Shown one piece after another: positions 1 through 64,000 of a stretch of DNA of 64,000 nucleotides. The DNA comes from Owenweeksia hongkongensis DSM 17368 (lineage in GTDB: Bacteria > Bacteroidota > Bacteroidia > Flavobacteriales > Schleiferiaceae), in contig NC_016599.1 of the NCBI RefSeq assembly GCF_000236705.1, positions 3,534,001 to 3,598,000 on the forward strand, read 5' to 3'. Under the pieces are notes generated by a model, which did not search any database, was not told where the DNA came from, and saw only the letters and a list, made by a program, of their open reading frames with translations. The position numbers were made by a program, and so were the translations under genes. Every line of letters begins with the position of its first letter. The first letter of the stretch is position 1.

Positions 1-324
1 TCTGTTGGTCTCAACTGTGCCTTAGGAGCGGATCAACTGCGACCTTATTTGCAAATACTTTCTAGAGAATCCCCATTTATGGTGAGCGCACACCCCAATG
101 CTGGTTTGCCCAATGCTTTTGGTGAGTATGATGAAACTCCAGAAAAAATGGCGGCTCAGATAAAAGAGTATCTCGACATGGGATTGATCAATATTATTGG
201 TGGGTGCTGTGGTACGGGGCCGGAGCATATAAGTGCGATTGCGAAGTTGGCTGGCGAGTATGAACCAAGGAGTGTTAAGAGCATTCAGTCGACAGTCGAT
301 AGTCCACAGGAAATTGATAGATAG
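1..324 (+). CDS. metH: Methionine synthase, homocysteine-binding part (5' end cut off by window)
   Basis: This is the C-terminal end of a homocysteine S-methyltransferase barrel, the N-terminal module of cobalamin-dependent methionine synthase. The frame is open from base 1. All three zinc-ligand cysteines expected for the family are visible: GLNC at residues 3-6 of the visible part, and the GGCCGTG motif near residue 70. In many Bacteroidota this module is a separate gene from the pterin/B12/activation part, as here, so the stop at 322-324 is not by itself a break. The last ~15 residues (from about SVKS) have no family counterpart. They are encoded by the left arm of an inverted repeat (286-309), so the tail looks rewritten by an insertion. 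It heads an operon with the genes at 327, 733 and 3403. Confidence 0.93.
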
Positions 325-714
325 GTATGGGATTTAAGTTTGAAAAATTAATAGCATGGCAAAAGGCATTGGGTTTAAGTGCGGATATCCATGAACTTAC
401 CTTGAATTTTCCACAGGATGAGAAATACATTTTAACTTCTCAAATCAAGAGGGCCGCAGATTCTATTAATCTAAATATTGCAGAAGGTTCTACAGGACAA
501 ACTAATAAGCAGTTTTCTGTATTTCTTGGTTATGCAATTCGTTCAGGAATCGAGGTAATAGCGTGTTTACATACAGCGAAAAAACGAGGTTTGATAGACT
601 TAGAAAACTTTAATAAGAACTACGATAGGACCGAGGAAGTAATCAAAATCACCCAAGGACTAAGAAATTCTCTACGAAACGGTGACCAATCTGTAGACTA
701 ATGACTATGGACTG
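286..714. repeat. Imperfect 24-bp inverted repeat flanking the IVP gene
   Basis: The left arm (286-309) and the reverse complement of the right arm (691-714) match at 19 of 24 bases. Both contain AGTC three times at a 7-base period (AGTC-NNN-AGTC-NNN-AGTC) and both end in ACAG. The left arm lies in the last codons of metH-N, and the right arm spans the stop codon of the IVP gene. The arms therefore bracket the small gene exactly. This is seen directly; that they are ends of a mobile or rearranged cassette is inference. Confidence 0.7.
327..701 (+). CDS. Four-helix-bundle protein of the 23S rRNA intervening-sequence (IVP/S23) family
   Basis: The 124-residue protein has the family signature near its start ([19 protein letters not shown]), followed by the conserved [19 protein letters not shown] stretch and the NIAEGSTG turn at about residues 50-57. 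Members are small four-helix bundles first found in 23S rRNA intervening sequences and related to the Avd accessory protein of diversity-generating retroelements. Free-standing copies have no established role. The ATG lies 2 bases after the metH-N stop and the gene sits between the two metH parts, in the same orientation. No reverse transcriptase or rRNA is nearby, so a retroelement or rRNA role is not supported here. An imperfect inverted repeat flanks it. Confidence 0.85.
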
Positions 715-732
715 TTAACTAAACAAAACGCA

Positions 733-3384
733 ATGAAACTATCAGGATTAGAACCATTAATAACTACCGCTCAATCCAATTTTATAAATATTGGAGAGCG
801 GACAAATGTTACGGGATCGCGCAAATTTTTGCGATTGATCAAAGAAGAAAAATATGATGAAGCACTTGATGTAGCTCGTGATCAAGTAGAGGGCGGGGCT
901 CAGGTGATTGACATTAATATGGATGAGGGTATGCTTGATGGAAAGTATGCTATGACTAAGTTTTTGCACCTTATTGCTGCCGAGCCGGATATTTCGAGGG
1001 TACCTGTAATGATTGATTCTTCAAAATGGGAAATCATAGAAGCGGGGCTGAAATGTGTGCAGGGAAAAGCGATTGTAAACTCAATAAGCCTTAAAGGTGG
1101 AGAGGCTGAATTTTTAGCACAAGCGAAAAAAGTAAGGCGCTATGGGGCGGCCGTAATTGTAATGGCTTTTGATGAAGACGGTCAGGCTGATACTTATCAG
1201 CGTAGAATTGAAATTTGTGAACGTTCATATAAGTTACTTGTAGAAAAAGTAAACTTCCCTAAGGAGGATATAATTTTTGATCCAAACATATTTCCCGTGG
1301 CAACGGGTATTGAGGAGCACCGCAGAAATGCGCTTGACTTTTTTGAAGCTACAAAATGGATTAAGGAAAACTTGCCTGGAGCCAAAGTGAGCGGAGGGGT
1401 GAGCAATGTATCGTTTAGCTTTCGCGGAAATCAATCGGTGAGAGAGGCCATGCATGCTGCGTTTTTGTATCACGCTGTACAAAACGGCATGGACATGGGG
1501 ATTGTAAACCCAAGTTTGCTGGAAGTGTATGAAGAAGTGCCCAAAGACCTAATGGAAAGGGTAGAGGATGTGCTGCTTGACAGAAGGGATGACGCCACGG
1601 AAAGACTGTTGGACTTTGCTGAAAACTTTGTAGGTGAAACTAAAACCCGTGAAAAGGATTTGGCTTGGCGCGAAGAATCGGTCGGTAAACGGATAGAGCA
1701 TGCCTTGGTAAAAGGGATTGTGGATTTTATTGAGGTAGATTCGGAAGAGGCACGTAAAAAATTTGCTACACCACTGGAGGTGATAGAAGGCCCACTGATG
1801 GATGGAATGAATGTGGTGGGTGATTTGTTTGGCTCTGGTAAAATGTTTTTGCCTCAAGTGGTAAAATCCGCTAGAGTGATGAAAAAAGCTGTGGCTTATT
1901 TGCAGCCATATTTAGAAGCTGAAAAAGCCAAGAATAAGGATACAAGTAAAAAAGGGAAAATTCTATTGGCTACCGTAAAAGGTGATGTACATGATATTGG
2001 GAAAAATATAGTGGGAGTGGTGCTGGCGTGCAACAACTTTGACATTGTGGATCTTGGTGTAATGGTGCCACTTGAGAAAATTTTGGAGAAAGCCCTTGAA
2101 GAAGATGTGGATGCAATTGGCCTGAGTGGATTGATTACCCCATCGCTTGATGAAATGATTTACGTGGCTCAGGAAATGGAGCGTAAGAAGATGACCATGC
2201 CGCTGATGATAGGTGGGGCAACAACATCTCGAGCGCACACAGCTGTTAAAATATTCCCGGAATATTCAGGAATCGCGGTTCACGTGAATGACGCCAGCCG
2301 CAGTGTTCCCGTGGCGCAAACTTTATCAAATAAAGCTTCCCATTCAGATTTTAAAAAGAAGCTTGCTGAGGAATATACTAAGCTTCGTGACGGATATTTG
2401 AGTAGGAGTAGTGCCAAAGAATACTTGTCATTAGAGGATGCTCGGGCAAATAAACTTCAAGTGAATTTCAGCGAGGAAGTTATTAAAAAGCCAAACTTTT
2501 TAGGTGTCAAGGTTCTTGAAGATCTGGACCTTGCAGAGATAAGAAAGTTTATGGATTGGACTCCCTTTTTTATCACTTGGGAATTGCATGGAAAGTTTCC
2601 AATGATACTGGAGGATGAGGTGGTTGGGGATGCTGCCACCAGTGTATACAATGATGCTCAGGCCATGCTTGATGATATTATTGAAAACAAAAAGCTTTCT
2701 GCCAAAGCAGTTTTTGGAATTTGGGAAGCCAATTCTGTGGAAGATGATATTGAATTGAGCATAGGAGGTGAAGACTTGGCAACATTCCGTACACTTCGCC
2801 AGCAAACCAAGAAAGCTGCTGCTGCATCTAACATAGCATTGAGCGATTTTGTGGCGCCCAAGGAAACAGGCCTTACAGATTACGTGGGGTGTTTTGCGGT
2901 AACCGCTGGTTTAGGGATAGAAAAAATGCTTGAAGAGTATTTAAAAGATCAGGATGATTATAAATCAATAATGGTAAAATCTCTGGCAGACCGATTGGCG
3001 GAAGCCACGGCAGAATGGCTTCATTATAAGGTGAGAACAGAATATTGGGGCTATGCATCTGGTGAGCAATTAGAAAATGATGAATTGATAAAAGAAAAAT
3101 ATCAAGGCATTCGTCCGGCACCAGGCTACCCCGCTTGTCCGGATCACTTGGAAAAGAACACCATTTTTGATTTGCTTCAAGCCGATCGAATCGGAATGAC
3201 ATTGACCGACTCTTTGGCCATGTATCCTGCTTCATCTGTATCTGGTTACTATTTCGCACACCCGGATTCCAAATATTTTGGACTTGGAAAAATCACAAAA
3301 GACCAAGTTGAAGATTACGCTGAGCGTAAGAATATTTCTTTAGCTGAAGCTGAAAAATGGCTGCGACCAAACCTTAACTATTAA
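733..3384 (+). CDS. metH: Cobalamin-dependent methionine synthase, pterin/B12/activation domains
   Basis: The 883-residue protein transfers the methyl group of 5-methyltetrahydrofolate through cobalamin to homocysteine, which is held by the separately encoded first module. The pterin-binding domain comes first ([14 protein letters not shown] at about residues 22-35). The B12 cap and Rossmann domains follow, with the DVHDIGKN motif near residue 418 whose His ligates cobalt, then SGLITPS and GGATTSR. The reactivation domain holds the AdoMet-binding motif [12 protein letters not shown] near residue 794. The length fits MetH minus its first ~340 residues. It lies 31 bases after the IVP gene and 18 before metF. 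Activity depends on B12, which links it to the cobalamin-uptake operon at 18.9-24.2 kb. Confidence 0.97.
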
Positions 3385-3402
3385 CATACACGCTTACAAT
3401 AC

Positions 3403-4356
3403 ATGAAAGTAATTGATCATATAAACAACGCTAAGGAAACTATCTTTTCATTTGAGATTTTGCCTCCCCTTAAGGGACAAAACATTGGGGAAATTTATCA
3501 AACCATTGATTCATTGATGGAGTATAAACCCCCATTTGTGAATGTGACCTATCACCGAGAAGAGGTGGTTTATAAACAAATGCCAGGTGGTTTGTTGGAG
3601 CAAAAAGTCATCAAGAAAAGACCGGGTACTGTTGGGATTTGTGCCGCCATCCAAAATAAGTACAAGATAGATGCGGTACCCCATATCCTCTGCGGAGGGT
3701 TTAATCGTGAGGATACTGAAAACGCTTTGATAGATCTCAACTTTTTGGGAATAGAGAATGTGCTTGCCTTGCGTGGAGACTGTATAAAAGGAGAGACCTA
3801 TTTTAAGGCAGAAAAGGATGGCCACGCCTTTGCGGCAGATTTGGTGAAGCAGATTTATGAAATGAATGAAGGCGTTTATTTAGACGAAGAACTTCAAAAT
3901 AGAACACCCAGTAATTTTTGTGTAGGAGTGGCAGGTTACCCTGAAAAGCATTTTGAGGCGCCAAGTTTAAATAATGATATAGCCCACATGAAGGCTAAGA
4001 TTGATGCCGGAGCTGAATATATTACTACGCAATTGTTTTTTGATAATGAAAAGTACTTTAAGTACGTGGAAAAGTGTAGAGCTGCAGGTATTACGGTTCC
4101 AATTATTCCGGGTATTAAACCGATAGCCACTAAAAAGCACCTTAGTATTTTACCTCATTTTTTCCATGTTGATCTTCCTGATGATTTAGTGACTGCTGTA
4201 GAAGCCTGCAAAGACAATAAGGAAGTTCGTCAGGTAGGAATAGAATGGGCCATCAATCAATGCAAAGAATTGAAAAAGGCAGGAGTGCCGGTTTTACATT
4301 TTTACTCTATGGGAAAGGTGGATAATATCCAAAGTATAGCCAGAGAAGTGTTTTAG
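3403..4356 (+). CDS. metF: 5,10-methylenetetrahydrofolate reductase
   Basis: The 317-residue flavoprotein reduces 5,10-methylene-THF to 5-methyl-THF, the methyl donor for MetH. Family motifs seen are FSFEILPP near residues 16-23 (catalytic Glu in FEI), VNVTYHREE, ALRGDCIKG, the GVAGYPEKHFEAPS segment, and TQLFFDNEKYFKYVEKCRAAGI. It is the last gene of the methionine operon and follows metH-C by 18 bases. A strong palindromic terminator lies 28 bases downstream. The length is slightly longer than the usual ~290-300 residues because of an insertion around residues 130-165 that is common in Bacteroidota. Confidence 0.96.
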   Translation: MKVIDHINNAKETIFSFEILPPLKGQNIGEIYQTIDSLMEYKPPFVNVTYHREEVVYKQMPGGLLEQKVIKKRPGTVGICAAIQNKYKIDAVPHILCGGFNREDTENALIDLNFLGIENVLALRGDCIKGETYFKAEKDGHAFAADLVKQIYEMNEGVYLDEELQNRTPSNFCVGVAGYPEKHFEAPSLNNDIAHMKAKIDAGAEYITTQLFFDNEKYFKYVEKCRAAGITVPIIPGIKPIATKKHLSILPHFFHVDLPDDLVTAVEACKDNKEVRQVGIEWAINQCKELKKAGVPVLHFYSMGKVDNIQSIAREVF

Positions 4357-4383
4357 TCAACCAACTAAATTCTAACAAAAATA

Positions 4384-4415
4384 AAAGCCCGATCTACAAT
4401 TGTAGATCGGGCTTT
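4384..4415. terminator. Bidirectional terminator between metF and LruC gene
   Basis: This is a perfect 16-bp palindrome of A3-GCCC-GATCTACAA and its complement, with A- and T-runs on the two sides. It lies between convergent genes, so it can end both the metF transcript and the leftward transcript from 6129. Confidence 0.9.
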
Positions 4416-4437
4416 CTCATGTTCTAAAATATCTTAC

Positions 4438-6129
4438 TTAGAAAATGTTTAATAAATCTGGTGATAAAAACCAATCTAAGTTTAGAGTTCCACCACTCTC
4501 TGCCCATGATTGAAACTGAGGGTAGGCCACTAAAACATCAACTTTTTCTAATGGATGCTGGAAGGTGTTGTAGCTGGTAATCTCTACAGCCCATGGAAGG
4601 CCTGAGGCTGTATTATAGGTTCCATTTATGTCATCTCCAGTGTTGAACAATTGATTATCAGCAGCAGCTGTTCCAGAGAATCCATCCAGATGTATTTCTT
4701 TTCCGCGTTCTTGAGTTCTAAAGATGTAGAAGTCAGGAATAATGTTGGTACCCGTACCACTTGCAAAAGTTATTGTGAAGGTAAATACATCAGGGGTAGC
4801 GTCAGCGCCAGTGCCAGTATTAGTGTAATACGTGCTTTGGGCTTGAAGTACCCCATCAAATACAATGATACCGTTAATATTGCTTGGATCTTGAGTAGCT
4901 CCAGTTATACTGCTTATAATAGAGCTTTGAATTGCATTTTTTGATGCAGCATCAACCAAGTTGATAGCTAGGCCATTGTTTAGTCCAGCACCAGCCGCTT
5001 GCAGTGTAATGTTAAATGTGGCGTCCACAAGCTCATTATTTCCGTTAAGCGTATAATCTACTTTTGAGTCAATTACCATATCGTTAAAATCAAAGTCGCC
5101 CTGATATGGCCAAGAGTCTTCAAAAGCAATTTTTTGCGTACCAGCTGTAGGGTAGCTACCTGTAAATGCTTTGTTTGGGTCATTTGGAAATTCATCCTGA
5201 CTATCTTCCACTCCATCATTATCTGCATCAATCACTGCCGATTTTGTCTCAGCCGTTACATTATCAAACCATGTTTTGTTAGACCCATATAGAAGTATAC
5301 TTGCCTTTGTTGCATTAGAAGGTATAGCATTAGCTATGGAGATACTGTTAAACCCACTATTTAGATAAGAGCCTGTATAGTTTATGTAATATCCATTTGA
5401 ATCATAAAAGAATACAAAGACTAAAGCACTACTAGAGCTACTAGCGTAACAATCAGTTGTTACAACAAGTGAATCTCCTGCTGGAACATTAAAAGTTTGC
5501 TCTATATAAGAGCTTTTTTTGTTTTTAACCTTCCAAACTTTACTTCCACTTTCAGTGCTCCAAGTATAGTTTTCATCAAACTTATACCATCCACCAACAC
5601 TATTAGATGATGAAAAGCTATTACTGCTGAAGTCACCATTTATAAGCAAGTTAGTCGCTGCGCTTTTCTTTAAAGAAGATTTACGCTGATTGGCTGGTGT
5701 AGCATTTACTAACATTCCCTCAATATCAGTTGCAGGGTCTGTATGTAGTTTGAAATTCACATTTCCCGCTCCTTCAATTTGAAATTTGTCACCAGTGCTT
5801 GGAGCAAATAAAAAGTATGTTCCTTCAGTTTGAGGAAGGTTCAAATAAAAGGAGCACTTGTTTCCTTGAATAACAGTAGTTTCTAGAACATTATTGAGTT
5901 CATCAATAACTTGAACCCTCTGACCTTCGGTGCGAAAGTTACTTCCCGCATTAATGGTGACATTTAGGTTTCCTTTTAAACTGTTACTCCAGTTAAATGT
6001 GGTTGGAATTGTAAGAGATCCAAGGTTTGTGGCGTTGGACGGGTTTTGGTTTGCTTTGGAGTCTTCGTTCTTGTTACAAGACGCCAAAAATAGACTTGCT
6101 ATCGCAAGAATAGATAGAGCTTTGTTCAT
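4438..6129 (-). CDS. LruC-domain (DUF4842) lipoprotein
   Basis: The 563-residue secreted lipoprotein begins with a lipoprotein signal peptide whose lipobox is LASC near residues 15-18. A beta-rich N-terminal half is followed by an acidic, calcium-binding-like spacer (DADNDGVEDSQDEFPNDP, near residue 300). The LruC domain comes next, recognisable by AFEDSWPYQGDFDFNDMVID and by GAGLNNGLAINL. The C-terminus has the conserved GREIHLDGF-type motif (here GKEIHLDGF), FNTGDDINGTYNTASGLPWA, and HPLEKVDVLVAYPQFQSWA. LruC domains are widespread in Bacteroidota surface proteins, with no established biochemical role. It is a close paralog of the next gene upstream (6315-8033). Confidence 0.85.
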   Translation of the reverse strand: MNKALSILAIASLFLASCNKNEDSKANQNPSNATNLGSLTIPTTFNWSNSLKGNLNVTINAGSNFRTEGQRVQVIDELNNVLETTVIQGNKCSFYLNLPQTEGTYFLFAPSTGDKFQIEGAGNVNFKLHTDPATDIEGMLVNATPANQRKSSLKKSAATNLLINGDFSSNSFSSSNSVGGWYKFDENYTWSTESGSKVWKVKNKKSSYIEQTFNVPAGDSLVVTTDCYASSSSSALVFVFFYDSNGYYINYTGSYLNSGFNSISIANAIPSNATKASILLYGSNKTWFDNVTAETKSAVIDADNDGVEDSQDEFPNDPNKAFTGSYPTAGTQKIAFEDSWPYQGDFDFNDMVIDSKVDYTLNGNNELVDATFNITLQAAGAGLNNGLAINLVDAASKNAIQSSIISSITGATQDPSNINGIIVFDGVLQAQSTYYTNTGTGADATPDVFTFTITFASGTGTNIIPDFYIFRTQERGKEIHLDGFSGTAAADNQLFNTGDDINGTYNTASGLPWAVEITSYNTFQHPLEKVDVLVAYPQFQSWAESGGTLNLDWFLSPDLLNIF

Positions 6130-23916: not shown

Positions 23917-24029
23917 TGTTAAATGAAATTTAAAAAGTTAGAAAACAAAAAACTCCCAGGAAAAAATCATAGAATAAGACCCATCACGGGCCGTTTCCTA
24001 TGTTCGCTTTTATCCTGAAAGCAAACACA

Positions 24030-24235
24030 AATTGCAAAAGGCAGGTCTTCTGGCTCGTCTTATTTTCAGCGCCTTCCCGTTCCGTCCCGATAGCTATCGG
24101 GAATAGGAACAGTGGCAAAGGTGATACTGAAAACTCTTGATAAGACTTACAGCTTCAGGAAAAGCTCCGGATTTACACCGGATTCCCTTTTAACCCCGCA
24201 AGCATGCGGGGACCAAAATGCTCGGCAAACTTACA
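24030..24235 (-). ncRNA. Cobalamin (B12) riboswitch
   Basis: On the minus strand the block reads, in order: a GGAATCCGGTGTAAATCCGG hairpin, a CCTGAAGCTGTAA stretch, the B12-box core GCCACTG, GGGAAGGCG, and GAGCCAGAAGACCTGCC. These are the conserved parts of the AdoCbl-class riboswitch. A CCCCGCA/TGCGGGG hairpin (24194-24211) lies at its 5' side. It sits 113 bases upstream of the first gene of the cobalamin-uptake operon, so cobalamin binding should shut the operon off. The expression platform between 23940 and 24020 was not resolved. Confidence 0.95.
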
Positions 24236-34200: not shown

Positions 34201-34274
34201 GGTCTGGTAGTTCAGTTGGTTAGAATACATGCCTGTCACGCATGGGGTCGCGGGTTCGAGTCCCGTCCAGACCG
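34201..34274 (+). tRNA. tRNA-Asp (GTC)
   Basis: The 74-nt cloverleaf has acceptor strands GGTCTGG (34201-34207) and CCAGACC (34267-34273). The D-arm sequence is TAGTTCAGTTGGTTAGA, the anticodon loop is CTGTCAC with anticodon GTC, and the T-loop is GGTTCGAGTCC. CCA is not encoded. An integrase gene begins 157 bases downstream, so its 3' end is the probable attachment site of the prophage. Confidence 0.97.
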
Positions 34275-34301
34275 CTAAAATCTCACTTAGAGGTTATAAA
34301 G

Positions 34302-47931: not shown

Positions 47932-48948
47932 TTAATCTGTGAAAAAATTCTCTTTGGTGGGATCATAGGGGCAGGGCTCTTCACTACTGGTAGTGGTGGG
48001 TGGGTTTTCTGCCAGATCTAAAGCAGTGATGTGATCTTCTAAGCGTTTCAGGTAGATTTCTACATCATTATTTAGCTCATCTGCTAATCTGTACCGGGCA
48101 CCTTCTTGTGCTACTGATCCTGCTTTTCTGTTTAGGGTATCACCTCTGTAGCCTTGTACCAGTCCTACTGGCCAAAACTTGATGGAAAGCCTTTTTAAGC
48201 CCAATGAAATGGCAAATAGCCCCATTGGTTTTCTTATGAGAGAAAGGAGTTTTCTATCATCAGCATCTAAAGCTGTGGTGCCTTTTAACTTGGCTTGTAG
48301 GGCTTCAAATCTATCTAAGCCCAAGGTGGAGAGTACTACATCTTCCTGAAACTCTCTAAGGAATGGTGTCAACTTGAGGTATAGCCATCTTGACCGGTCA
48401 ATGGGGAATATTCTTTCCAATTGGTCAGCATCAGAAATGATGAGATCAAAGTGGGCTTGCCTTTCATCAGAATCTTTCCATTCAGTAATGACATCCCTTT
48501 TTTCTTCCAGGTATTTTAGTAATTGGTCTACCTGCCTTTGGGCTTTTTTGTGGAGAGAGGCATCAGCTCTATCAATTTGCCATTCAAATGCTGGTTTTTC
48601 ATTTTCAGAAACATGAATAGCTCTACCATTGCCTGTGTGGTTGATATCATTTTGGGCAGCAAATACTATGTAAGCAAAGTTGGCTACAGGTGCCTGTATG
48701 AGATATACCAGCCTATTGAGAATAATAAGTGTGGGATTAGCCTCTGCTGGTTGGTTGTAATCATTAGACAGGTAGTGAGTGAGTACCCTTTGGTATGTAT
48801 CATCACCAATGAGCAGTCTGATTTCTTCAGATTCATACTCTAACTCTCCAGATATTTTGGAGTAGGCAAGGTCTGCATCCAAAAAGGAGCAATGCAAACG
48901 GACTTCATCTACATTATTAGCTTGTGATTTATTGAACAGTGCTACCAT
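47932..48948 (-). CDS. Head-tail connector-like phage protein
   Basis: The 338-residue mostly helical protein follows the portal gene with a 20-base overlap. Stretches such as DVVLSTLGLDRFEALQAKL and GLFAISLGLKRLSIKFWPVG may belong to the DUF6712-type family of Bacteroidota phages; this match is from memory of the pattern and is uncertain. The position directly after portal suggests head closure or adaptor. Confidence 0.5.
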   Translation of the reverse strand: MVALFNKSQANNVDEVRLHCSFLDADLAYSKISGELEYESEEIRLLIGDDTYQRVLTHYLSNDYNQPAEANPTLIILNRLVYLIQAPVANFAYIVFAAQNDINHTGNGRAIHVSENEKPAFEWQIDRADASLHKKAQRQVDQLLKYLEEKRDVITEWKDSDERQAHFDLIISDADQLERIFPIDRSRWLYLKLTPFLREFQEDVVLSTLGLDRFEALQAKLKGTTALDADDRKLLSLIRKPMGLFAISLGLKRLSIKFWPVGLVQGYRGDTLNRKAGSVAQEGARYRLADELNNDVEIYLKRLEDHITALDLAENPPTTTSSEEPCPYDPTKENFFTD

Positions 48949-50302
48949 CGTTTACGCGGTCTTTTGGTGTTACGTCTTCTTGTTTTTTGGTGGTTTGTCG
49001 GTAAAAACCTAAGCGAATACCGGAACCCGGCCAGTTGACTTCAATTGCTCTGTTGATGGTGTCACATATTACTTCTTCTGGTATCTGCACCTCAGAGTTG
49101 ATATAGTTGAGATAGGCATAGAGCTGCTCAGAGCCACTATTGGCAGTGCCATTAGAAATATTGGAGAGTGAAGGGTGCATGCCTAATCCAGCAGATGTGG
49201 AGTTGTCAAAAATCTTTTGGATGGAAAGCATGGAGTCTACAAAGTCTTTTACTTTTTGATCTATAGAATCAAACTCCCAACCCACTGTGTTTACATGTCT
49301 ATCTGCTAAAACCTGAGTAATGGTTTCTGTAGTAACATATTTACCAGCATTTTCAGCCCCTGAAAGCACCTTTCCTATTTCGCGTTTTTTGTTGCGTTTG
49401 GCTTCAAGGAAATCTTCATACTTGAAGGTTTTTCCAGCTTCAGCTGCCCGGGTGCGCATTTCTTTTTCTTTGGCATCCCAGTACTCTTGTGGTATTTTGA
49501 TGTGCCATGGCACTGTGAGGTTGTTGGCTACAAAGTTTTTAAGTAGAATGGGTATTACTGTGGACATGCCCATGGAAGGTTCTACAGAAAGGATATCAGG
49601 TAAGGGGTAGTGTTTTACAGCATAGGTGTAATTGCTGGCAAAGTGAATACCTACACCATGCTCAGTAAATCTTTCATCATGAACTCTTGGATATACTTTC
49701 CATGCTTTTTGGTGGCGGTGGTCCCAATCACCTACAATGATAAGATCCGGATCTTCTGTTTCCTTAGATTTTAGCTGTGCCAATCTGGCCTCTGCTGCTG
49801 GGACATGTTCTATCCGGGCTACTTTAGAAGGTCTGCCAATACGGGAACCTCTATCATTAAAGGTTTTGGAGGTGATGTACTCACCTTTATTGTAGTCATC
49901 TATGGCCTTTCTCAGGTATGACCTGTAGTTGAAAGACCTTAGCCATGCTTCAATTTCTGGGTTTTGGATAAACTCTTGTGATATCTCACCATCAGTGAAC
50001 TTATGCTTGTAGAGAAAGGGGCCCATTCCCCAGGCTAAGAAAAGGCGTTTTTTTAGTACCCGGGTGCCAATAGGGTTTTGCTTTAGCATCTTTCTAATGC
50101 TCCTGTGTAGGGCATTGTTTTCACCAAAAGGAAATACTGTGTACTTGTCTACAGATATGGGGAGGTCATCCCACTCAAGCCCCATATTGTTGTGGGATAG
50201 ATTGGACTGCAGCTCTGCCCTGTTGGTAGCTTTGTCCTCAAAGATGAACACTGATTGTTCTGTTGCTACTGCAGAGTATGCGCCTTGCTCCTCGTATCTC
50301 AT
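48929..50302 (-). CDS. Phage portal protein
   Basis: The 457-residue protein has the size and mixed alpha/beta pattern of portals. Supporting features are an early KQNPIGTRVLKKRLFLAWGMG, RSYLRKAIDDYNKGEY (crown/wing region), a long Lys/Glu-rich helix (AKEKEMRTRAAEAGKTFKYED) and FDNSTSAGLGMHPSLSNI. The last is like the SNVSGLGMHPSL-type stretch of Bacteroidota phage portals. It follows terL and an 88-residue gene (4-base overlap) and precedes connectors. Confidence 0.75.
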   Translation of the reverse strand: MRYEEQGAYSAVATEQSVFIFEDKATNRAELQSNLSHNNMGLEWDDLPISVDKYTVFPFGENNALHRSIRKMLKQNPIGTRVLKKRLFLAWGMGPFLYKHKFTDGEISQEFIQNPEIEAWLRSFNYRSYLRKAIDDYNKGEYITSKTFNDRGSRIGRPSKVARIEHVPAAEARLAQLKSKETEDPDLIIVGDWDHRHQKAWKVYPRVHDERFTEHGVGIHFASNYTYAVKHYPLPDILSVEPSMGMSTVIPILLKNFVANNLTVPWHIKIPQEYWDAKEKEMRTRAAEAGKTFKYEDFLEAKRNKKREIGKVLSGAENAGKYVTTETITQVLADRHVNTVGWEFDSIDQKVKDFVDSMLSIQKIFDNSTSAGLGMHPSLSNISNGTANSGSEQLYAYLNYINSEVQIPEEVICDTINRAIEVNWPGSGIRLGFYRQTTKKQEDVTPKDRVNDGSTVQ

Positions 50303-50565
50303 GGTGTGATTACTTTAACTCCGTTTATTGATTTAATTAGAGGTATCCAACATGACCTATGCTCATCACGCTCCACATTGTACAGCGCCAGTTTCATGTC
50401 ATCGTTTTTATCATCGGGATTACCTGGTCTTACTACACATTGGCTGATAGCCTTAGCTCCTCCTGCCTTACCGGTGCTCTCATCATAAGCCCAAAACTCA
50501 ATCATGAAGGTGTTTCCTTCCTTGCTTTGGGCTCTTGCTATTGTGGCTGCTTGGTATACGTCCAT
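50299..50565 (-). CDS. Small phage protein before portal, unknown
   Basis: The 88-residue soluble beta-rich protein has DVYQAATIARAQSKEGNTF and YNVERDEHRSCWIPLIKSI. It overlaps portal by 4 bases and starts just downstream of the structured CpG-rich block. No family is recognised. Confidence 0.55.
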   Translation of the reverse strand: MDVYQAATIARAQSKEGNTFMIEFWAYDESTGKAGGAKAISQCVVRPGNPDDKNDDMKLALYNVERDEHRSCWIPLIKSINGVKVITP

Positions 50566-50599: not shown

Positions 50600-50770
50600 C
50601 TCTATGCTATGGAAAAGGACAAGGGCAGTACCAACAGCACTCCATGACCAGTGATCGACACTCCACCGAGGTCACCCCGTCCCATAACGGGAATCATATC
50701 TCTCAAGGGGAGGGGTCGAACGTGCGCACACTTCCCCGAGAGAGCGGGGCGGTATAAATCGTGACTAAGT
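50600..50770. ncRNA. Candidate structured RNA or inserted element between terL and portal block
   Basis: This block has about 11 CpG in ~125 bases (50640-50765), against 14 in the whole 3.4-kb tape-measure gene. On the plus strand it can form: CCCGT/ACGGG (50676-50690 region), a long CTCTC-AA-GGGGA with TCCCC-GAGAG stem enclosing GTGCGCAC, an outer CCCCG/CGGGG pairing, and TGACC/GGTCA around GTG-ATCGA-CAC. The minus strand also has a 31-codon frame (ATG near 50697). The strand is not settled. A bidirectional terminator lies at 50959-50989. The rest of the 497-bp gap holds an 18-codon plus-strand frame at 50870 preceded by AAAAGGAGG. Confidence 0.5.
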
Positions 50771-50958
50771 GTTTTGAGTGATGGGTTTTGACAAGGTATT
50801 TACCTGTCCTGCAGTGGGTTATGTGTTTTGATTTTTTGAAAATGCTGTTAAAAGGAGGTTACAGACAAATGACTTTTATGAAACAGGGTAGTTATTACCT
50901 ATTTAGTAGTAGGATGGGAAAGTGAAATCCTATAAAAAGAAGTTTGGAGCAAAAAAAG

Positions 50959-50989
50959 AAACCCCAAGCGGTTGCAGTGCTTGGGGTTT
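50959..50989. terminator. Terminator downstream of terL (works on both strands)
   Basis: An 11-bp perfect stem, AAACCCCAAGC / GCTTGGGGTTT, has a 9-base loop with A-rich and T-rich flanks on both sides. It would stop terL transcription leftwards, so the portal block needs its own promoter or antitermination. Confidence 0.9.
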
Positions 50990-51062
50990 TGTTTAATGTG
51001 ATATGTCAAGTAAAACAATAAACAGGGTAAAATTATGAATTGCAAAGTATAAGTGGCCCTAT

Positions 51063-52766
51063 TTACTCAAATATCTCGGGATCATCAAAGCGGAGTTCTG
51101 TTTTGCGGTGCTCAGCTGCTTCTAGCCATTGGGGACGGCAGAGCCAGTACTTAAAGGCATCACTCATGTTGGTGGAAAGCCAAATGAGTTTTTCCCGGTT
51201 GTCCTTGTATTTCTTTTCTGAGGTTTTGTCTTTTTGAATGGAGACTGAACCATCCCTGTCTTTTGAAATAATAACCTGAGCCTGCTCCATGCTGCTCAGC
51301 ATTACCTTGCATTCATATTTATCTATAAGGAGCTGGGGTAGATCTGGGTTGGTGCCTTTCATCATTTGTAGAGCAAGATCAAACTCCTGAGAGTGGGTGA
51401 TATTGCCTTGATTTCTGCTCATTAGATTTACCTTCCAGCCTGTAGGCCTGCCATCTCTGGTAAACTCAATTGCTCTTTTTATCTGGGAGGCAAAGTCTTT
51501 CTTAGATTTTGAGTAGTTATTGGCTGATCTATCATAGTATAGATCTAATTCCTTTTCTACCTGGGGCTCAAAAAAGGTGACAAATTTTTCTGCCAAGTCT
51601 TCTATCCACTCTGGGCTTACTGTATAAAACTGCTTGAGGGCTCTAGCCTTTGAACCTATGGTTTGCCCTATCACCAAGCTCATCATGTTACCAGTATCCA
51701 AACCAGCTTCTAATCTAAAATAGGGGTCTGCATGCCTTAGGCCTGATGAACTCTCTACCACATGACCAATGTCCATATCATCATAGTGGCTTTCATAAAT
51801 GTAGCCATCTGTATACAGGCAGTTTTCTGATAGTCCAGGATAAAAGAGGGATGTTTTTGGTGGCTTGGGTTTATTAGATAGTACTGAGGTGGAAAACTCT
51901 TCTGAGCCCAAGGCTGCCAATGAATCTACAAAGAAATCAAGAGTAAGGATATCTACATTGATAAATGAGCTGGCCACATAAAAAAAGTAGCTCTTTTTTC
52001 TGATTTTATTGTATCTCTCCATCCATCTTTCTAAGTTCTTTTCTGCCAAAAGGGTGCTTTTGCCTTCTGCTTCTAAGTTTTGGATTTCTATCCGGATGTC
52101 ATTCACCTCATAGGCTACTTCCAAAATGAGCTTGATCTGTTCAGGATCCATGTATTTTACCATGTCCATCATCCAATCATGCTCACCATGACTTGGGTTG
52201 GCCATATCACTGGTAAAGGTGTGGCCCAAATAGTAGGGAGATCTGGAAAACCTCACAAAATCACCACCCCTACTGGCTGGGGTAAGCTTATCCAGTTTCT
52301 TTTTGTCCAGGTACTTTCCTTCATCACCAAATACATGCTGGTAACTATCTCCTGCACCTACTGATGGCCTATCCTGACTGATAAACTTAAAGATGCAGCC
52401 ATTGTAAATGCTAATGGTATGTACAAACTCATGTATGGGCTTGTAGGGCTTCTTAAAATGTGCTGGAGGCCTTTTGTTTACCACATAATGAATACCCTCT
52501 ATCCAGCCTTTCCGGTTCCAACCTTCTAATAGGGCTGGCACCACATTCTTTATAAGGTTCATATAGGTATCTGCAGTAAGGGCAAACTGTGCCCCAGGCA
52601 TGTCATAGCATATTTCCATGCTCCTTTCTGCCATTATATCTGTGGTTTTGGCACCACCTCTACCTACTATCAGGTACAGAAACTGTGAGCCCACCATATC
52701 TACCACCTGCTTTAGCCAACTGGCAAATCTGTGCTCTACCCGGTCACTTTCCTTTATCTGTCTCAT
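51063..52766 (-). CDS. Large terminase subunit
   Basis: The 567-residue packaging ATPase/nuclease has a deviant Walker A VGRGGAKT (residues 34-41) and a Walker B-like HVFGDEGKYL near residue 145. An RNase H-like nuclease domain has acidic residues in LEAGLDTGNMM and LYYDRSANNY. Length and order fit TerL. It overlaps the upstream gene by 23 bases and is followed by a strong terminator. Confidence 0.85.
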   Translation of the reverse strand: MRQIKESDRVEHRFASWLKQVVDMVGSQFLYLIVGRGGAKTTDIMAERSMEICYDMPGAQFALTADTYMNLIKNVVPALLEGWNRKGWIEGIHYVVNKRPPAHFKKPYKPIHEFVHTISIYNGCIFKFISQDRPSVGAGDSYQHVFGDEGKYLDKKKLDKLTPASRGGDFVRFSRSPYYLGHTFTSDMANPSHGEHDWMMDMVKYMDPEQIKLILEVAYEVNDIRIEIQNLEAEGKSTLLAEKNLERWMERYNKIRKKSYFFYVASSFINVDILTLDFFVDSLAALGSEEFSTSVLSNKPKPPKTSLFYPGLSENCLYTDGYIYESHYDDMDIGHVVESSSGLRHADPYFRLEAGLDTGNMMSLVIGQTIGSKARALKQFYTVSPEWIEDLAEKFVTFFEPQVEKELDLYYDRSANNYSKSKKDFASQIKRAIEFTRDGRPTGWKVNLMSRNQGNITHSQEFDLALQMMKGTNPDLPQLLIDKYECKVMLSSMEQAQVIISKDRDGSVSIQKDKTSEKKYKDNREKLIWLSTNMSDAFKYWLCRPQWLEAAEHRKTELRFDDPEIFE

Positions 52767-53397
52767 TGTAGGTATTCAGAATTAGTTCAGGGGCTTCTAT
52801 ACCAGCATCTACCTTAATGCGTTTTTTGTCTGCTTCTGTTACAAACTCCCAATCATCAATGATTTTAGCCAGATCTCTTCTGTTTACCTTATCCTGTGAA
52901 AGCAGTCTAGGGTCTTGAGTGTACACCTTAACCGGTCTTTTGAATAGCTCTTCAGGGAATTTGGATTCTTGTGGCCTGTACTTAGTTCTGGCATCCATCT
53001 CACTAAGCAGTATTTTATGAGCTGTTTCATAATCCTTAATGCAGGTAGCAGAGTTGATAGTAGCTAAATACAACTGGTGCAGCTCATCAGCATAGTAGTT
53101 TCCCCAAGCCTCTAGCTTTACATCTTTTACTATGTAAAAAAAGTTGATGGCATCTGCATAAAAGTTGCCTGCCTGATATTCTGAAATTTCACCAGGATAA
53201 GCATTCACCAAGTACTTTACTATAAATTTTTTTGACTTTTTGCCCGGTTCATCATTGCACTGGCCAGTCATAAGCTGCTGCACCTGCTTTAGCACCTGTA
53301 GGTAAAAGGCCTGATCTTGTGTAAGGCCTTCATTAGATCCACTCTCAATGTATTGCTTAATGAGCTCAGGATTGATGTTTTCCAAACTTTCAGCCAT
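52744..53397 (-). CDS. Phage protein between putative small and large terminase, unknown
   Basis: The 217-residue helical, acidic protein has YVQ-type aromatic helices (YLQVLKQVQQLMTG, NFYADAINFFYIVKDV) and a C-terminal LILNTYNETDKGK that overlaps the terL start. It shares one base with the preceding gene. It may be a terminase accessory or a second TerS domain; it is not recognised by motif. Confidence 0.5.
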   Translation of the reverse strand: MAESLENINPELIKQYIESGSNEGLTQDQAFYLQVLKQVQQLMTGQCNDEPGKKSKKFIVKYLVNAYPGEISEYQAGNFYADAINFFYIVKDVKLEAWGNYYADELHQLYLATINSATCIKDYETAHKILLSEMDARTKYRPQESKFPEELFKRPVKVYTQDPRLLSQDKVNRRDLAKIIDDWEFVTEADKKRIKVDAGIEAPELILNTYNETDKGK

Positions 53398-53711
53398 TAC
53401 AATTCACCATTTAGGAGCTTATTCCGGTTTATTTGAAATTCTCTGGCTGCCACTATCTGCATATGTTGCTTGGCAGCAGCAGGATCACCAATAGCCAAAC
53501 CAGCAATGCCCATGGCTATTTTGCCCTCTACCAGCAGTATTCCTCTATCATAGTGGTATCTGATGGTAGAATCTGGGTCATCCCATTGTTTTTTAAAAGC
53601 TCTTACATCTGTATTCAGAAAAATGGCAATTTCTCTAGGGCCATATCCAGCCCCAGCCAATTGCTCTATGGTTTGCTCATCAGTAAGTTCTATTTCTGGT
53701 AAATCATCCAT
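53397..53711 (-). CDS. Putative small terminase subunit (HTH)
   Basis: The 104-residue protein has a homeodomain-like HTH (TIEQLAGAGYGPREIAIFL, then DVRAFKKQW) and a helical C-terminal half with KIAMGIAGLAIGDPAAAKQ. Position two genes ahead of terL and the DNA-binding module fit TerS. It is divergent from cassette 2. Confidence 0.6.
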   Translation of the reverse strand: MDDLPEIELTDEQTIEQLAGAGYGPREIAIFLNTDVRAFKKQWDDPDSTIRYHYDRGILLVEGKIAMGIAGLAIGDPAAAKQHMQIVAAREFQINRNKLLNGEL

Positions 53712-62623: not shown

Positions 62624-64000
62624 CTACATATTCAATCCCATGCCCTTCACTTCATAATCAGTGCCTTCTACCAGCCTAAAGTCATAAGGGGGATTTACAT
62701 CCGAATCAGGGCCATAATACAATATATTCCAGTAGTCTTGCCAATATTCATCAGCTCCAGGTTCTACACCGTGATGTTTAGTTGTACACTTATATACTAC
62801 TGTTCTGTATGCAGAATCTAAATGTGAGTGATTAATTAATTGCCTGTAAGGCACTACATCACCGACTCTGAAGTACATAGGGTCACCATCGTAATAACAC
62901 CCCTCACAGTTGTGGCTCTGTGGTCCCTTTATCGCAGTCCAATGATAGAATCTATGTGGGTCAAATTCATGATTTCCAAAAGCATTTATAAAATTTGGAG
63001 ACGAAATAGTATCTACCCTACTACCTCCTATTACAGTCACATTCTCTATTGTGTTGGCTGATGATTGTAAGGTTTTATCAAAAGTCATTCGTTCTACTAT
63101 AATCGGGTTTATAGTATTGGCGGAATAAATAGCTACACCGCCTGTTGTATCAAAACCAACTTTAAAACTGTCTAAGTCATATCCAATCTCGCCAAAATAA
63201 AGGTCAGATATTTTTATAGGGGTTATTGAATCACCGCTAGAATGTATATAAGCTCCGCTGTGACCTCTGCCTTTCCAGTATAGGTTGTTCCTAACATAAT
63301 TTGTATCTCCATTGACTGGTGCTTCTCCAGCGTTAAAATAAAGGAATAAGCCTAACTCAGCGAATCCCATTGCTATGTTATTCTCACTCGTATTGCCTCC
63401 ATTGGGATAACTATGCTGCTCAGCGTTACTTTGGTTAAATTGAAAAGAGTTAGATATAGAGAGTCCAGTAAATGTTACATTGTTCCGTAGAATGTTACCT
63501 CCATTAAGCCTTTGACATTGCGTTTCGCTTCCATTAGCTATGAAGAGATTATTCTCTACGATGGTGTTTGAGATTAGCTGCTGCGGTGGCGCTTTTGTGT
63601 TTCCCAAATATAAGCCTTCATTTATGCAGTTTTTAACCAGGTTATTATGGATGTGGTTACTATCTGGATTTCCAATACCATTATCTTGTTTTATATTGAA
63701 CCCTGTGGTAAACGCCCCATCAATTTCTACGTGGTCAATCTCTACTTTAGACCACTCTCCGCCAACCGCAAAGGCGTGTATACCGTTCATCCACATATTG
63801 TTTGCGTAAAAGCCAAACTGTCGCGCTTGATAAGAACTATCCACATCGCCTCTGTAGTTTATATTACCTGTTCTATTTTCTGCTGAATACTCCCCTGTAA
63901 ATCTCACAGCATAAGCATTTATGAAACCAAACCCTTGTGCAGATTCTACCTGACCAAGCCAATTAGTTACTGTCAATCTTCGTGAAGCAAAATCACCTTG
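62624..64000 (-). CDS. Parallel beta-helix protein, N-terminus beyond the window
   Basis: The frame is open to base 64000 and the first eight visible codons precede a TTG, so the gene is partial. The protein shows PbH1-type coils with recurring NNL/NNV/ENN-I turns (HNNLVKNC, ENNLFIANGS, LRNNVTFTG, RNNLYWKGRG), as in polysaccharide lyases and tail spikes. It could be a phage spike or a cargo/host polysaccharide-active protein. CpG is not depleted, which argues against an origin with the rest of the phage. Confidence 0.65.
   Translation of the reverse strand, partial: QGDFASRRLTVTNWLGQVESAQGFGFINAYAVRFTGEYSAENRTGNINYRGDVDSSYQARQFGFYANNMWMNGIHAFAVGGEWSKVEIDHVEIDGAFTTGFNIKQDNGIGNPDSNHIHNNLVKNCINEGLYLGNTKAPPQQLISNTIVENNLFIANGSETQCQRLNGGNILRNNVTFTGLSISNSFQFNQSNAEQHSYPNGGNTSENNIAMGFAELGLFLYFNAGEAPVNGDTNYVRNNLYWKGRGHSGAYIHSSGDSITPIKISDLYFGEIGYDLDSFKVGFDTTGGVAIYSANTINPIIVERMTFDKTLQSSANTIENVTVIGGSRVDTISSPNFINAFGNHEFDPHRFYHWTAIKGPQSHNCEGCYYDGDPMYFRVGDVVPYRQLINHSHLDSAYRTVVYKCTTKHHGVEPGADEYWQDYWNILYYGPDSDVNPPYDFRLVEGTDYEVKGMGLNM

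Follow-up and report, generated by a model that had tools for sequence, protein, structure and literature searches.

What is the short, CpG-rich block that lies beside the packaging genes of a prophage in Owenweeksia hongkongensis DSM 17368? It occupies about 50600-50770 of a 64,000-nt stretch of contig NC_016599.1 (the window). The first-pass annotation had read it as a strongly structured segment, perhaps a packaging-type RNA, another ncRNA or a small inserted element. Comparison with related phages led us to a different answer: with a probability of roughly 0.88, judged from sequence comparison, what we see here is the prophage's cos site, a DNA site for packaging.

A CpG-rich block beside the packaging genes

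Counted over the 64,000-nt window, the span 50652-50776 holds 11 CpG in 125 nt, in agreement with the initial estimate of about 11 in about 125 bases. The same density was reached in four other window spans (starts 2198, 17052, 28480, and 29703), all before about 34 kb and thus in the part taken as host; this host/prophage border was set from the drop in CpG and is approximate. Between 34.4 and 64 kb the mean was 0.86 CpG per 125 nt (sd 1.32), with at least 9 CpG per 125 nt at one other place, near 63.7 kb. That other CpG-rich place spans about 63709-63833, with 9 CpG per 125 nt. The phage is indeed CpG-poor, as had been noted: CpG observed/expected was 0.17 at 35-64 kb vs 0.73 at 1-34 kb, while TpG and CpA were 1.20 and 1.30 in the prophage part vs 1.10 and 1.09 in the host part. 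CpG depletion with raised TpG and CpA would fit a prophage that either avoids CpG or has lost it where it was methylated. The block retains its CpG inside this depleted background; its density might reflect a GC-rich cohesive end held under selection in a genome otherwise stripped of CpG. In 4-kb bins, CpG falls past a tRNA-Asp gene at the edge of the host part (34201-34275, plus strand), which may therefore be the integration site of the prophage. The host part also carries a cobalamin riboswitch (24023-24227, minus strand).

The neighbouring genes read as packaging genes, as first described. On the minus strand, the block lies between terL (51063-52766), for the large terminase subunit TerL, and an 88-aa gene (50299-50565) directly before the portal protein gene (48929-50302). 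Between terL and the site stands the terminator previously placed at 50959, a 13-pair stem at 50958-50990 on the plus strand, whose bidirectional nature was upheld by a T-run seen by eye on the other strand. The terL assignment rests on relatives: TerL is 45-49% identical to terL-position genes of the Duneviridae phages Ingeline, laban6-1, FPSV-F7, and 6H, 40% to Bacteroides phage BT-TP2, and 28-31% to P. gingivalis phages, and its homologues are annotated as terminase in BT-TP2 and in a P. gingivalis phage. The terL family phrog_2 was matched by one of six aligned TerL relatives; the window protein itself had no match in PHROGs or Pfam, and the TerL alignment had none in the PDB. The portal protein, assigned by homology to the Ingeline portal, is 31-34% identical to that protein and its place-mates in 6H, FPSV-F7, and laban6-1, and 23-34% over the full relative set (Duneviridae, P. 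gingivalis phages, BT-TP2). The 88-aa gene has weak homologues at the same position in Ingeline and G331 (single-subject tblastn) and no match at E 0.01 across the whole phage collection. Two genes upstream of terL, a 104-aa protein (53397-53711, minus strand) with a predicted helix-turn-helix and two long helices is a candidate small terminase subunit (TerS). The mean pLDDT of its AlphaFold model was 89.6 and its best PDB fold match, a weak one, was Sf6 TerS (E 0.29); eight of 31 aligned homologues, the window protein not among them, matched phrog_309, terminase small subunit.

A three-part DNA element in related phages

To collect relatives, TerL and portal alignments were used as queries against IMG/VR and genome loci; with loci from other searches these made 411 in total, several per contig in places and with chance loci included, and three of the alignment queries contributed the best 80 loci listed. 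TerL as a single-sequence query matched nothing in the genome or viral contigs. The DNA of the block resembled nothing in the phage collection and, among 88 genomes of the host family (its own included), only itself, apart from short matches (E 0.0017-1) taken as chance.

Side by side, the terL-to-portal gaps of relatives showed CCGCCCCGCTC or a similar word, followed at a fixed distance by AGARATATGA, on the late-gene strand. The element has three DNA parts on this strand, A, M, and B, at near-fixed spacing and with little-conserved spacers. Across 111 non-redundant elements, the consensus of A is CCGNCCCGCTC, with conserved columns from A-1 to A+9 and A+2 free. M is a 10-bp near-palindrome from A+21, with variants TGCAATTGCA, TGCACGTGCA, and TGTAATTACA, and B (AGARATATGA) lies mostly at A+46 to A+48. 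Over the same 111 elements, 0.67 of the pairs in M were complementary, vs 0.52 when each partner was taken from a different sequence, a modest dyad excess with a similar one at centres A+50 to A+53, inside B.

In this phage all three parts are on the minus strand: A is CGCCCCGCTC (50742-50751), M is TGTGCGCACG (50721-50730, dyad centre A+26), and B, a candidate cosB-like recognition motif, is AGAGATATGA (50694-50703), 48 nt from A start to start. The GTGCGCAC core singled out earlier is present at 50722-50729 and corresponds to M, which scores low in the profile described below (1.4). The exact A-to-B pattern occurs once in the 4.0-Mb genome. Past B, the flank at 50600-50693 (minus strand) contains another four CpG as well as two direct copies of TGGAGTG, 21 nt apart, and is possibly an extension of a putative cosB. 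In relatives, the words CCCACCA, ATCCCAC, TGTCACA, and ACCACTT were far above expectation in the 80 nt after B; CCCACCA, a word absent from this phage, occurred in 26 of 111 elements vs 0.3 expected. These recurrent words are possible candidates for terminase-binding repeats.

The element was tied to its place in several ways. Pairs of A and B 46-48 nt apart, with at most 3 mismatches in 20, were found downstream of terL in 13 of 45 terL clusters, upstream of terL in 0/45 on either strand, and in 0/45 dinucleotide shuffles; matches on the other strand in 2/45 (L063, L087) were inverted copies. A three-block profile scored above 21 between terL and portal in 269 of the 411 loci (duplicates included), and at most 19.2 in mononucleotide shuffles of the first 235 loci (470 strands). 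Among loci outside its construction, 237 of 378 were above threshold, many on shared contigs; the Ingeline row of the profile carries a wrong A, a junction artefact first taken as a variant motif. The threshold was missed by 142 of 411 loci, some of which do not contain the stretch while others may lack the element. Named-genome loci passed in 18 of 21 cases, from many host genera, and Porphyromonas had a TerL match in 18 records, the one examined for the element scoring 28.9 (L019). Moreover, a protein-free pattern scan of viral contigs gave 15 matches, every one adjoining a terL or portal homologue and eight in contigs new to the set. The element is a fixed, single, and conserved DNA site linked to the terminase and portal genes, as expected of a cos site. 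Most likely, it is common to many related viruses of Bacteroidetes bacteria, in both orientations; no published description was found in a literature search conducted without preprints, most subscription papers, and supplementary files.

The 104 distinct arrangements comprised 66 in the same orientation as here, 20 inverted, and 18 with another gene order. In the same-orientation class, the distance from A to portal was nearly constant (median 456 nt, IQR 435-469, range 387-592), and that from terL to A was long and variable (median 2161 nt, IQR 1115-3039, range 124-4366). Inverted elements mostly lay close to terL (terL-to-A median 163 nt, IQR 142-200, range 100-1968) and farther from the portal gene (A-to-portal median 2286 nt, IQR 1026-3172, range 498-5039). 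Extra DNA is found on the terL side in the former class and usually on the portal side in the latter; several inverted arrangements were short on both sides, and one (L215) was opposite in pattern, with 1968 nt to terL and 498 to portal. In nine of the 18 arrangements with another gene order the element is found on the upstream side of terL, with 2.4-4.2 kb from it to the terL stop (L137, L139, L141, L148, L150, L259, L260, L263, L270), a location we take to be closer to that of a classical cos.

Record and contig ends inside motif A

Eight distinct records or contigs begin at A+4 to A+10 and read toward B: Ingeline, L080, L089, L138, L140, L152, L165, and L243. Starts within a truncated element made up 13 of 822 locus ends (duplicates included), and random windows of the first 235 loci gave a truncated element in 29 of 20,000, corresponding to about 1.2 expected vs 13 seen. 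From the terL side, L095 ends at A-3 (100% over 200 nt to L202); this is the one clean right-hand end supporting the overhang length, and the left-hand ends scatter over A+4 to A+10. Two ends of one circular contig (L390/L099) and L066 (near A-15, 76% identity, not clean) were left out of these counts, and second loci of one contig were counted once (L115, L241, L249, L275, L346). Within 500 nt of A we mapped 28 ends of loci, a count that takes in duplicates and flank cuts; 19 of them fell outside A-15 to A+9. Coincident ends are not confined to A, since two contigs (L137 and L142/L237) share an end at A-253, on the A side. Contigs L138, L140, L152, and L243, which have an end inside the element, belong to the TerL branch of the nine upstream-element loci.

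The strongest evidence on ends came from Ingeline, with eight isolates for comparison, identical over the 80 nt before and the 60 nt after the junction (the start of isolate 1 was taken from its RefSeq copy). In the linear records of isolates 1-7, 8-9 G/C bases, differing among isolates, stand between GATTTAAC and AGGTCTG; the circular record of isolate 8 has ACCGCCACGCTC at the junction, a full A. Exactly at the record junction, then, seven of eight records show 8-9 inconsistent bases in place of 12 nt of A, and the isolate comparison led us to drop a variant A motif in Ingeline as an artefact of ends. According to a passage in PMC5557969, end repair degrades 3' overhangs and assemblers put cos ends at contig limits, so the loss of exactly 12 nt is an indirect sign of 3' cohesive ends; it also agrees with the L095 end and with the left ends at A+9 and A+10. 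The authors of Ingeline list its ends as not determined, and their termini predictions are given as unverified in the relevant section of PMC8776804.

Together, column conservation, the Ingeline junctions, and related contig ends predict a 12-nt cohesive end (cosN) in this phage, ACCGCCCCGCTC (50742-50753, minus strand, read from 50753 to 50742), which we infer to protrude 3' and which contains motif A.

A predicted cos site and its alternatives

If the block is a cos site, the terminase would recognise concatemeric phage DNA there and cut its two strands at staggered positions, so that virion chromosomes would be linear and their single-stranded ends complementary. Motif A would be both the cut and the cohesive end, with TerL presumably making the staggered nicks as in lambda, while M and B, perhaps with the repeats past B, would form the recognition side for the small terminase subunit, in analogy to cosB. 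The B-bearing end would enter the head first, again on the lambda model; the linear chromosome would start at window position 50741, continue by way of M and B into the 88-aa gene and portal, and finish on the terL side at 50754.

A cos site is a known kind of site; its place between terL and portal and its two orientations among relatives are unusual. In lambda, cos lies before terS. Lambda cos, outlined in PMC4669245 as cosQ-cosN-cosB with repeats on the recognition side, has a 12-base 5' cohesive end (PMC5557969); the present case resembles it in layout, as a site in the DNA where a cohesive end of 12 nt adjoins a recognition side that carries repeats. The site studied here differs in its place, which is the terL-portal gap or, when inverted, just past terL, and in its inferred 3' ends. 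Cohesive 3' ends are reported in PMC5557969 for Efm1 (9 nt) and phiCD481-1 (13 nt), with HK97 classed as COS 3'; these phages would share the end type with ours and are set apart by its A-M-B layout and position. The Polaribacter phage Leef (Helgolandviridae) has a distantly homologous TerL (24% identical); its record ends 83 nt after terL and its termini are predicted as Cos 3' by PhageTerm, unverified, in Table 3 of PMC8776804. In contrast to our phage, its portal gene lies 2.9 kb into the record, and A, M, and B were not recognisable in it by eye.

Among the alternatives, a control region of the portal operon (a late promoter, an activator site, or a leader ORF from the ATG in B) keeps a small chance. 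It would accommodate how little the A-to-portal distance varies among same-orientation arrangements (IQR 435-469 nt) and the presence of an ATG in B, at which the 31-codon minus-strand frame reported earlier does start (50602-50706, 34 codons if counted from TTG). However, the inverted class mostly keeps the site by terL, facing away from portal; in 78 of 111 non-redundant elements a frame opened at the B ATG meets a stop within about 80 nt; and nothing in this reading would account for records and contigs that end inside A. A scan that does not cover Bacteroidetes promoters gave no sigma-70-like match. The 40 shortest of these frames (1-13 codons), the ones inspected, were unrelated, and the leader-ORF reading was not supported.

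Even less probable is a transcript across the block that acts as a packaging RNA of the phi29 pRNA type or as some other structured ncRNA. The sequence does allow GC-rich stems, with a minimum free energy of about -52 kcal/mol on either strand, and the block does adjoin packaging genes and a terminator. Nevertheless, the strong structure first described is only what base composition gives: the plus-strand fold had z -1.03, with 31 of 200 shuffles as good, and the minus-strand fold z +0.21, with 112 of 200. A search for RNA families gave no Rfam gathering match near the block, and at E<=5 five sub-threshold matches, all over the terminator (50945-51056). RNAalifold on 20 elements (the window and 19 of the 111 relatives) gave -0.52 kcal/mol, and the only two pairs it formed lie in the short M dyad. 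Conservation in short blocks with unconserved spacers and the inversion of the element in a subset of relatives also fit one transcribed RNA poorly. The early hint at packaging was right, but the object looks like a site of DNA cleavage and packaging rather than an RNA or an inserted element.

Just as improbable is a small inserted element or a site for site-specific recombination (attP or a resolution site), to which the central dyad with motifs on either side and the extra DNA in relatives would lend themselves. In Ingeline, the one phage checked, some 12 and 22 kb separate the site from the two annotated integrase genes. Across many host genera, 18 of 21 genome loci retain the sequence, unlike a host-matched att core; the extra DNA is mostly on one side, and the 4.0-Mb genome has a single copy of the exact pattern.

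The cos reading, if right, would provide a sequence signature for chromosome ends across a large group of Bacteroidetes phages, most of them uncultured; how they package DNA is mostly left open in the portions of the literature consulted. Their genomes could be linearised at the true terminus, each phage's cohesive sequence would be predictable, and a concrete site for cosmid-like DNA packaging in Bacteroidetes would be at hand; terminal accessory-gene regions and flips of packaging polarity would also become testable. On the last point, we consider it fairly probable that one homologous cos element stands in two orientations among related phages, so that the polarity of packaging, seen against terL and portal, has switched during evolution, and that in both states extra genes gather mainly at the cut side, the last-packaged end, with the recognition side locked to the neighbouring core gene. 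A chromosome end at A predicts just such a bias of extra DNA toward the A side, whichever way the element points, since the B side would be tied to its neighbour gene and the other end free to grow. In FPSV-F7 and laban6-1, this extra DNA contains genes annotated as DUF932, SymE-like, and methyltransferase.
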